In this document: positions 4,014 to 6,193 of the stretch, piece by piece
Layout: each line of letters begins with the position of its first letter
How positions within the stretch are numbered: the first letter of the stretch is position 1
Assembly: GCF_017086445.1 (NCBI RefSeq)
Contig: NZ_CP070968.1
Location: forward strand, 2,604,001-2,668,000
DNA from: Brevundimonas fontaquae
Lineage (GTDB): Bacteria > Pseudomonadota > Alphaproteobacteria > Caulobacterales > Caulobacteraceae
Reading direction: 5' to 3'
Length of the DNA: 64,000 bases
The notes under the pieces: model-generated
The model's database searches: none
What the model was told of the DNA's origin: nothing
What the model saw: the letters and a program-made list of their open reading frames with translations, nothing else
Translations under genes and position numbers: made by a program

Positions 4014-4484
4014 CTATCCCCGCCCGCGATAGGTCGGCACGCCCTGGTCCGGCAGCCACAGCCCCTCGGGCGGCGCACCGGTCTGCCAGAAGACGTCGAT
4101 CGGGATGCCGCCGCGCGGATACCAGTATCCGCCGATCCTCAGCCACTTGGGTTCAAGCAGGTCGGCCAGCTTGCGGCCGATGGCGACGGTGCAGTCCTCG
4201 TGGAAGGCGCCGTGATTGCGGAAGCTGGTCAGATACAGCTTCAGGCTCTTGGACTCGACCAGCCAGTTGCCCGGCGCATAGTCGATGACGATGTGGGCGA
4301 AATCCGGCTGGCCCGTCACCGGGCACAGGCTGGTGAACTCCGGCGCCGTGAACCGGGCCAGATACAGCGTGTCCGCATGCGGGTTCGGCACCCGCTCCAA
4401 CACCGCCGTCTCGGGACTGGTCGGTGCGGCGGTCTGGACGCCGAGCTGGCTGAGGTTGTCGGTGTAGTGGGTCATGCCGGGCAT
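4014..4484 (-). CDS. queF: NADPH-dependent 7-cyano-7-deazaguanine reductase QueF (short type)
   Basis: Reduces preQ0 to preQ1, the last step before the modified base enters tRNA on the way to queuosine. The 156-residue length fits the unimodular type I enzyme. Visible motifs are the nucleophile region [15 protein letters not shown] (Cys54, Asp61) and ESKSLKLYL with the QueF-specific E and K/R pattern. NHGAFHE follows, where His and Glu bind the substrate. ATG codons at 4484 and 4475 are both possible and no strong ribosome site separates them. The gene is divergent from the DUF559 gene, and the left copy of the inverted repeat lies just upstream of its start. Confidence 0.94.
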
Positions 4485-4509
4485 TTAGGCGCTTGCGGCC
4501 GGCTTGAAA

Positions 4510-4555
4510 ATCCTCCCCCATCGGGGGAGGGGGACCGCGAAGCGGTGGAGGGGGC
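4510..4555. repeat. Left copy of a 46-base inverted repeat flanking the DUF559 gene
   Basis: This 46-base element contains two hairpins: CCTCCCCC/GGGGGAGG, and a small one with arms CCGC and GCGG. It is the reverse complement of 4942-4987 with one mismatch by my count. It sits between the start of queF and the start of the DUF559 gene, within about ten bases of the latter. The shape resembles repetitive extragenic palindromes. See the first finding. Confidence 0.85.
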
Positions 4556-4564
4556 CGGCCGCGT

Positions 4565-4990
4565 ATGCGGTCCATGACGGCAATGACCTATGCACCCAAG
4601 CGAACCGTCGCCCGCGCCCGCGCCCGCGACCTGCGCCGCGCAATGACCCTGCCGGAAGTTCTGCTCTGGCAGCAGATCAGAAGCCGCCGGCTCGACGGCA
4701 TTCGCTTTCGGCGCCAGCACCCCATCGGTCCGTACATTCTGGACTTCTATTGCGAGGACGCCCGCCTCGCGGTCGAGGTGGACGGCGAAAGCCATTCCTT
4801 AGCAGAGGCCGTCGCGCATGATCGACAGCGGACCGAGTGGCTCAATACGCGCGGCATTTCGGTCCTGCGTATTCCGGCGCGCGATGTTTTGAGCGAACTG
4901 GCTGCCGTGGTGGACCAAATTCATCGGCAGGTGCGTGATCAGCCCCCTCCACCGCTTCGCGGTCCCCCTCCCCCGGTGGGGGAGGATTGA
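4565..4990 (+). CDS. DUF559 (Vsr/restriction-endonuclease-fold) protein inside inverted repeats
   Basis: A 141-residue DUF559 protein. Members have a very-short-patch-repair-like PD-(D/E)XK nuclease fold. The motif is visible as RFRRQHPIGPYILDFYCED followed by AVEVDGESH, giving D...ExD. The basic N-terminus (KRTVARARARDLRR) and LPEVLLWQQIRSRRLDG are typical of the family. The last 16 or so residues, PPPPLRGPPPPVGED, and the stop codon are encoded by the right inverted repeat. Several ATGs (4565, 4574, 4583) could start it; the conserved part begins near 4583. No biochemical role is established. It stands alone and is bounded tightly by the repeats, suggesting a transposable or repeat-linked unit. 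Confidence 0.85.
   Translation: MRSMTAMTYAPKRTVARARARDLRRAMTLPEVLLWQQIRSRRLDGIRFRRQHPIGPYILDFYCEDARLAVEVDGESHSLAEAVAHDRQRTEWLNTRGISVLRIPARDVLSELAAVVDQIHRQVRDQPPPPLRGPPPPVGED
4942..4987. repeat. Right copy of the 46-base inverted repeat, encoding the DUF559 C-terminus
   Basis: Reverse complement of 4510-4555 except one base (GGT here against GAT in the complementary reading). It contains ACCGC-TTC-GCGGT and CCTCCCCC-GGT-GGGGGAGG hairpins. The coding frame of the DUF559 gene runs through it and stops three bases past its end. The 270 bases from 4991 to the next gene hold no gene that I can recognise. Confidence 0.85.
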
Positions 4991-5260
4991 GACGGGCCAG
5001 CCATCCCAATCCCGGACCGCTTCCCTCGCCCTTTCAACGCCTTCGCGGCGACCAGCGTCAATCGACCGACCCTACGCCCGAACCGTCGTATGATGGCCGG
5101 TTTTCACCCGCCGTCGCCGCCTGCCCGCTTTCACCCCGCCTCCGACCCGAGATTAGACGAATTAGACTCATTTTTTCGCGCCACCGTCTGAAATCCCCCC
5201 GATTGCCTTCCCCGGCGACAGCCCGCTAAGCGTAGCGAAAGAAAACCAAAGGAGACGTCC

Positions 5261-6193
5261 GTGGCCATTCCCGCTTCGCTGCAAAAAGGTCTGATCCTGC
5301 CGATCATTTCGGCGCCCATGTTCCTGGTGTCCGGACCAGACCTGGTGGTCGAGGCCTGCAATGCGGGCGTGATCGGCACCTTCCCGTCGCTGAACCAGCG
5401 CACGACCGAGGGCTATCGCGAGTGGATTCATGAGATCAAAAGCCGGCTGAAGCCCGAGGCCGCGGCTTTCGGCGTCAACCACATCGTTCATCCGACCAAC
5501 CCCCGGCTGATGGCCGATATGATGGTGTCGGTGGAGGAGAAGGTGCCGCTGATCATCACCTCCCTGGGCGCCGTGCGCGACGTGGTCGACGCGGTCCATG
5601 GCTACGGCGGTCAGGTCTTCCATGACATCGCCAACATTCGCCATGCGCGAAAGGCGGCCGAGGCGGGCGTCGATGGTCTGATCCTGGTCGCCAACGGCGC
5701 GGGCGGCCATGCGGGCATCATCAACCCCTTCGCCCTGGTCAATGAGGTTCGCAGCTTCTTCAAGGGGACCATCATCCTGTCGGGCGCGCTCTCGACGGGT
5801 CAGGATGTAGCGGCCGCCCTGATGCTGGGCGCCGACTTCGCCTATATGGGCACGCGCTTCATCAACACGACCGAGGCCATGGCCGCCGACGCCTACAAGC
5901 AGATGGTCATCGACAGCGGCGCGACCGACATCGTCCACACGCCCGCCGTGTCCGGCATCCCTGCCAACTTCATGAGCAAGTCGCTGATCGAGAACGGCAT
6001 CGACCCTAAGACCTTGCCAGAGCACAAGCTGGACATGGGCGACGAGGCCAAGGCCTGGAAGACCGTCTGGTCCGCCGGCCAGGGCGCGGGCGCCATCCAC
6101 GACGTCCTGCCGACCGCCGAACTGGTCGCGCGCCTGCGACAAGAGTTCGCTCAGGCCACGGAGGAATTCGCCATCAAGGCCGGAGCACGCTAA
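5261..6193 (+). CDS. Nitronate monooxygenase / 2-nitropropane dioxygenase family
   Basis: A 310-residue FMN-dependent TIM-barrel enzyme that oxidises alkyl nitronates. Visible motifs are PIISAPMFLVSGPDLVVEACNAGVIGTFPSLN at the N-terminus, the flavin-phosphate region DGLILVANGAGGHAG, and LSGALSTGQDVAAALMLGADFAYMGTRF. The His of GAGGHAG is the proposed catalytic base of class I enzymes. The start is GTG at 5261 with a strong AAAGGAG nine bases upstream. The porin-like gene follows 38 bases later on the same strand. The role may be detoxification of 3-nitropropionate-type compounds, which is inferred from family members. Confidence 0.9.
   Translation: MAIPASLQKGLILPIISAPMFLVSGPDLVVEACNAGVIGTFPSLNQRTTEGYREWIHEIKSRLKPEAAAFGVNHIVHPTNPRLMADMMVSVEEKVPLIITSLGAVRDVVDAVHGYGGQVFHDIANIRHARKAAEAGVDGLILVANGAGGHAGIINPFALVNEVRSFFKGTIILSGALSTGQDVAAALMLGADFAYMGTRFINTTEAMAADAYKQMVIDSGATDIVHTPAVSGIPANFMSKSLIENGIDPKTLPEHKLDMGDEAKAWKTVWSAGQGAGAIHDVLPTAELVARLRQEFAQATEEFAIKAGAR

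Follow-up and report, generated by a model that had tools for sequence, protein, structure and literature searches.

What links a small nuclease gene to the near-perfect inverted repeat that encloses it? The question is raised by a locus in a 64-kb stretch of DNA (here called the window, G000:C1:2604001-2668000) from a genome of 3.30 Mb. The original prediction held that this locus may be a REP-like mobile unit in which a DUF559 nuclease takes the place of a Y1 transposase.

Structure of the repeat arms and the nuclease gene

An inverted-repeat scan, motif scoring and folding place the left arm at positions 4509-4555 (forward strand) and the right arm, located by the same scan, the ORF and folding, at 4942-4988 (reverse strand), 386 nt away. 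Each arm is 47 nt long and the two are 98% complementary, the sole mismatch lying at 4521 inside a hairpin loop. Both contain two hairpins, with predicted energies of -13.6 and -13.3 kcal/mol as single-stranded DNA (z = -2.7 and -2.4). The repeat had first been described as 46 bases with one mismatch and two hairpins per copy, a description that holds with one further A/T pair. The left arm, read on the forward strand, consists of an outermost hairpin (CCTCCCCC-ATC-GGGGGAGG, 4512-4530; pattern search, motif scoring and folding), a small inner hairpin between the second and third strands (ACCGCGAAGCGGT, 4534-4546; folding and sequence) and, toward the gene, a third strand (GGAGGGGG, 4547-4554; motif scoring) that is an exact mirror of GGGGGAGG. 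On the reverse strand, the right arm has its third strand (GGAGGGGG) at 4943-4950 by motif scoring and its outer hairpin at 4967-4985 by pattern search and motif scoring. Mirror third strand and purine strand correspond at 8/8 positions in both arms. An RNA family was considered and rejected, since Rfam returned for positions 4300-5200 two chance-level matches only (E 0.74 and 0.95, under the cut-off).

The DUF559 gene (4565-4990, forward strand, 141 aa) was defined by its ORF, a profile match, conservation and a structure model. Its ATG (4565) lies 10 bases inward of the left arm. The Pro-rich tail PPPPLRGPPPPVGED is encoded by the right arm, whose final base is overlapped by the stop codon (TGA, 4988-4990); the gene boundaries and the repeat-encoded tail are as originally predicted. 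The 3' arm encodes the protein C-terminus in 38/65 DUF559 genes that have an oriented 3' arm, and many Pro-rich DUF559 tails are thereby explained as translated repeat. The neighbours, assigned from the ORF list and relatives' loci and used as synteny anchors, are an upstream gene at 4014-4484 on the reverse strand, which we take to be queF, and a downstream gene at 5261-6193 on the forward strand, presumably nitronate monooxygenase-like.

The protein matches PF04480 at E 8.4e-34 (116.2 bits against a cut-off of 20.6), and no Y1 transposase domain was matched in it. Its AlphaFold2 model (pLDDT 89.7, pTM 0.78) matches 3hrl, I-Bth0305I and Vsr, and TnsA less well; mitoribosome parts and other proteins are also among the structural matches. 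Residues E31, D60, E71, D73, H77 and D86 are invariant across 34 DUF559 sequences, and we presume that they have catalytic roles. The model matches and the conserved acidic and His residues bear out the Vsr-like fold expected from the outset, and the protein is predicted to be a Vsr/EDxHD-like PD-(D/E)XK nuclease with its active site intact. Vsr is a mismatch-repair nuclease. The window's protein shares fold and acidic/His residues with both Vsr and the EDxHD homing endonuclease I-Bth0305I, but its gene is bounded by repeats, and no intron or intein host was seen for it. Caulobacter VsrA also belongs to DUF559, and a DNA-damage phenotype is described for it, although it was studied as a mismatch-repair nuclease and the main text of that report makes no mention of palindromes (PMC12907096).

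The arm design is a hairpin whose purine strand precedes its own mirror image. Among 159 distinct elements from the loci analyzed, collected with a search pattern that does not favor a match, stem and third strand were concordant at two variable positions in 154/159 (p = 4e-39) and 153/159 (p = 5e-20), p-values that are inexact because the elements are partly related. This threefold covariation is evidence, of an evolutionary kind, that the third strand is of importance in the cell. With their mirror third strand, which is absent from the original description, the arms belong with the boxC/PIT/TM (intrastrand-triplex) motifs and not with the RAYT-type REPs; a physical triplex, reported for the E. 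coli motif (PMC4666352), may form in this subtype too. The window's repeats and the boxC/PIT/TM repeats alike combine a pyrimidine strand, a purine strand and a mirror third strand and occur as inverted pairs at unstable loci (PMC4666352). The second loop of the window arms is longer than that of boxC/PIT/TM and holds its own hairpin. Unlike the window unit, the repeats of that account are linked to no enzyme, and Holder 2015 states that mobility functions were never found around them (PMC4666352). One DUF559 gene (L120) has 101-nt arms of 99% identity, with hairpins that lack the mirror third strand.

The CGTC REPs (Di Nocera 2013, PMC3733652) resemble the window's repeat as alphaproteobacterial repeats without a known transposase but differ from it in sequence. 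A pattern built from their description in PMC3733652 (a terminal tag, CGTC or TGTC/CCTC, preceding a stem that begins with AT) had no match at the window's unit. It likewise had no match within 300 bp of DUF559 at 191 loci (0/191) and so lent no support to CGTC REPs as the gene's partner, a weak test given that only four such REPs occur in all those loci.

Dispersal of the repeat and turnover of its sites

Within the 64-kb window, neither the 29-nt core of the arm, with 3 mismatches allowed, nor the outer hairpin has a further copy (shuffles, 0). Across the genome, the core CGGTCCCCCTCCCCC (up to 1 mismatch) has 41 matches versus 2 for a reversed control, and a longer arm pattern has 40 (22 forward, 18 reverse) versus 0. 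The idea of a private palindrome is ruled out, as the repeat is dispersed through the genome in some 40 arms. Possible kin are the RIME and CIR repeats known from Rhizobium and Caulobacter.

Thirty of the 41 core matches were examined: 11 lie in geneless divergent pairs with cores 80-119 nt apart, 2 are the window's unit (437 nt apart) and 17 are partnerless by that pattern, 15 of these having stems CCTCCCCA or similar and being single arms. On a check that the original prediction called for, geneless copies outnumber gene-bearing ones. The fifteen single arms (L014-L021, L024-L030) have CCTCCCCA/G-type stems, and CCTCCCCC-type stems occur paired; DUF559 genes bounded by CCTCCCCA-type arms were found in relatives (L065, L082). 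Eight geneless pairs in G000 have 28-66 nt between their arms. No common ancestor of these eight spacers was found, and they are unrelated in sequence, which indicates that whole pairs were not copied intact.

G000 holds two DUF559 genes besides that of the window. The reading frame of the gene at 3046026 is broken; an arm lies on the 5' side of this gene and, directly 3', a geneless pair of which one arm is degraded. The gene at 1006482 abuts with its 3' end a 3.9-copy tandem array of another subtype with a period of 199. This array (L083:8970-9752; G000:C1 about 1005669-1006451) contains about four repeat pairs, like a BIME cluster.

Orthologous loci with and without the unit exist, as the original prediction supposed, both at the window's site and at eight further sites of the same genome. 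The window's site was compared in 29 relatives, 3 of which gave no junction. Three relatives (L143-L145; anchor 97-98% identity) have a geneless pair of another subtype, L147 and L149 have two arms that share the window's subtype but are arranged the opposite way, L160 and L166 have a pair of a third subtype, L151 and L152 have a short solo hairpin, and others (e.g., L153, L154, L158 and L161) have no such element. The solo hairpins resemble the palindrome effect described for E. coli (PMC4666352). L165 and L171 carry inverted pairs of an unrelated repeat (CCGCTCATCCCCGCGGAGGCGGGGACCCAG) in the same intergenic spot, which is therefore a hot spot for several repeat families. When the eight further sites were compared with 30 relative loci from five genomes, at least one relative lacked the two-armed unit at each. 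One site has a DUF559 unit in G028 and G020 and a geneless pair in G000, G039 and G048. The second DUF559 unit of G000 is missing in G039 (96% flank) and G028 but aligns through in G056. No clean target-site duplication, the mark of a MITE or insertion sequence, was found at the sites compared, where empty sites differ by unrelated sequence too.

Association of DUF559 genes with the repeats

DUF559 genes are associated with these repeats in flanking, fixed arm orientation, genome-level co-occurrence, subtype match and presence or absence of the unit. All flanking counts refer to DUF559 loci that are best-scoring matches or hand-picked, from related genomes that are non-independent. Short or contig-edge loci were left out, so that 27/30 genus, 27/30 class, 27/27 new phylum, 76/80 named, 28/30 window-clade and 28/30 ParE loci were used; control ORFs were called by a greedy longest-ORF rule that sometimes took the wrong strand.

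In twenty 20-kb regions on long contigs, hand-picked from the ranked genus list and the window's own genome, an inverted-repeat score of at least 30 bits was found for 10/21 DUF559 genes versus 2/296 other ORFs (1/254 non-adjacent ones). A score of at least 35 bits was reached at 26/54 class and phylum DUF559 loci. Triplex motifs on both sides, with the third strand facing the gene, are present at 16/27 best genus loci, 11/22 loci of the 20-kb genus set, 8/27 class loci and 7/27 phylum loci, against 1/291 control ORFs and 0/247 non-adjacent ones. At least one side carries a motif at 27/27, 16/22, 19/27 and 24/27 of these loci, respectively, compared with 7/247 non-adjacent ORFs and 29/291 ORFs when neighbors of DUF559 are included. 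Among named genomes, 27/76 DUF559 loci have motifs on both sides, 56/76 on at least one and 20/76 on none; the corresponding controls are 0/116 and 9/116 for non-adjacent ORFs and 2/237 and 78/237 for all ORFs (both sides and at least one side). The both-sided named cases include Chloroflexota, Planctomycetota, Thermodesulfobacteriota and one Kapabacteria genome. In the window's own DUF559 clade, the window included, a cognate arm lies on both sides of 11/28 genes and on at least one side of 20/28 (9/28 and 18/28 by triplex scoring). With both-sided arms at 11/28 clade loci and no motif at 20/76 named loci, the supposition that DUF559 genes are always flanked by an inverted pair does not stand. 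Many DUF559 genes of relatives nonetheless lie between matching inverted arms, and they do so in many non-syntenic places. With the repeat also dispersed in the genome, the original prediction withstood the refuting conditions that it had set itself. ParE toxin genes of the same genus were flanked at 0/28 loci on any measure, a control on which passive placement beside accessory genes was rejected.

The association extends to whole genomes. In per-genome counts compiled by hand for 249 genomes of the phylum, at least 10 hairpins occur in 59/76 genomes with DUF559 (E < 1e-10) versus 12/173 without (odds ratio 47, p = 2e-29), and 11/76 genomes with DUF559 have fewer than 5. Thirteen families hold both kinds of genome, of which 11 agree with the co-occurrence, 1 ties and 1 disagrees. 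The RAYT domain, with every match at E 0.001 counted, shows no such link in the same genomes (at least 10 hairpins in 31/130 with it versus 40/119 without). This result, together with 0 matches of PF01797 (Y1_Tnp) in G000, rules out a RAYT as the repeat's enzyme. Dosage is weaker within the genus, where the median number of arms is 18.5 in the 54 genomes that hold the window's DUF559 clade (E 1e-28 or better) and 8 in the 27 that lack it (p = 0.004). Four genus genomes have no DUF559 match; G013, G025 and G041 keep 8, 11 and 18 arms, respectively, G013 and G025 being incomplete assemblies, and the fourth has none.

The two arms of one gene have the same stem class in 44/51 cases (13.7 expected). 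A tree was built from 65 DUF559 domains, with each synteny cluster represented once; 48 of the domains are labelled, and 32/62 inner branches are open. The repeat class changes 12 times on this tree, whereas shuffling gave 23.7 changes on average and never fewer than 18 (0/300). The genus-only part has 5 changes versus 6.8 shuffled (1/300 as low), and the non-genus part has 7 versus 10.2 (0/300). Repeat subtype tracks the DUF559 tree. Several DUF559 genes per genome occur with arms of different subtypes.

E. coli YcjD (NC_000913 1351407-1351760) is a DUF559 protein. Inspection of MG1655 by eye (L141:6200-6430) shows two elements: one is boxC-like, has an imperfect stem and begins about 165 bp past the ycjD 3' end, and the other is degraded and overlaps the end of the gene. 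The exact hairpin pattern had no match near ycjD. At least 80% of the fabI-ycjD-sapF stretch is present in 3333/5426 E. coli genomes, whereas in the other 2093/5426 no single place covers that much; in three of the latter that were inspected, other genes adjoin fabI. In E. coli 2017-01-4CC (L285), about 106 bp near the ycjD 3' end are absent relative to MG1655, and ycjD is annotated without its C-terminus. A separate palindrome with 16-base arms, seen by eye at L141:6759-6801, lies over the ycjD start codon region and is perhaps an operator.

Possible roles of the nuclease

We consider it probable that the unit represents a dispersed triplex-type repeat system in its gene-carrying form, in which an unrelated DUF559 PD-(D/E)XK nuclease fills a REP/RAYT-like role. 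The nuclease would recognize the folded arm (hairpin plus third strand) when it is exposed single-stranded at replication and would nick or cut there. Replication or break repair might then copy, convert or delete arms, which would account for the spread and turnover of the repeats. Such a role would resemble that proposed for RAYT transposases with REPINs, played by an unrelated enzyme. Dispersal, flanking and site turnover favor the predicted REP-like mobile unit with DUF559 instead of a Y1 transposase; the part that does not stand is the repeat class, which is boxC/PIT/TM and not RAYT-type REP. As in REPIN/RAYT (TnpA-REP) systems, one small gene is bounded by inverted dispersed palindromic repeats, geneless copies are in excess and repeat type tracks enzyme clade. 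The differences are that the enzyme is a PD-(D/E)XK nuclease and not a Y1/HUH transposase, that the repeats are triplex-type motifs and that the G000 pairs share no spacer.

We infer that the nuclease drives the spread of the repeats. Several observations speak against this: no clean target-site duplication was seen at the empty sites, the pair spacers in G000 are unrelated, many DUF559 genes lack an arm on at least one side and 11/76 phylum genomes with DUF559 have fewer than 5 hairpins. Repeats also persist without the gene, in three genus genomes and in the 12/173 phylum genomes with at least 10 hairpins, and genus genomes without the window's clade still carry the subtype at a median of 8 arms. 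A close rival, which we regard as unlikely, is homing into existing pairs: DUF559 would cut geneless pairs and the gene unit would be copied in by break repair on arm homology, without spreading the geneless repeats. In its favor, I-Bth0305I is among the closest solved relatives, a DUF559 gene has been placed in the EDxHD homing family (PMC9403480) and one orthologous site is a geneless pair in some genomes and a DUF559 unit in others. The arm subtype, however, differs between the two states of that site, just as G000 differs in arm subtype from its nearest relatives at the site of the window's unit, and homing leaves the rarity of hairpins in genomes without DUF559 unexplained. Homing and nuclease-driven spread could act together.

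The Vsr fold, the instability of boxC/TM loci in E. coli (Holder 2015, PMC4666352) and the genome-level co-occurrence would also suit a nuclease that trims or resolves hairpin or triplex obstacles, retained by repeat-rich genomes and regulated by the repeats beside its gene. We think this rather improbable, as it predicts neither inverted arms bounding the gene nor subtype matching, nor the presence in one genome of several DUF559 genes whose arms differ in subtype. It is very unlikely, in our estimation, that the arms are ordinary terminators or insertion-prone intergenic DNA and DUF559 just a small accessory gene of variable regions. In its favor, a hairpin of the same sequence was read as presumably a terminator in the Enterobacter sp. 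638 genome paper (PMC2869309), the 3' arm frequently lies at the stop codon and the window's intergenic site carries other repeat families in other species. Against it stand the ParE genes (0/28 with any flanking element), the non-adjacent ORFs (0/247 and 0/116) and the constraint on orientation and subtype.

Because the gene-repeat pairing recurs in many bacteria, the DUF559 nuclease is a candidate for the missing enzyme behind widespread small bacterial repeats. To our knowledge, no enzyme is known for boxC/PIT/TM repeats, and no paper whose title, abstract or consulted passages link DUF559 to these repeats was found among open-licence PMC papers, the field of our search, which had subscription journals and bioRxiv outside it. 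Nuclease-driven spread by DUF559 raises a broader possibility, which we advance tentatively as slightly short of an even prospect: that DUF559 proteins are a second, independently evolved REP-mobilizing class, Vsr-like nucleases that recognize triplex-folded repeats and have spread boxC/PIT/TM elements over many phyla, including boxC of E. coli K-12 via YcjD. If this is true, it would be a transposon-like system with a homing-type nuclease as its sole protein and with DNA triplexes for ends. Linking DUF559, a widespread domain, with boxC/PIT/TM repeats makes the questions about both testable in standard laboratory strains, and it suggests that the arrangement of REP and dedicated enzyme evolved more than once.
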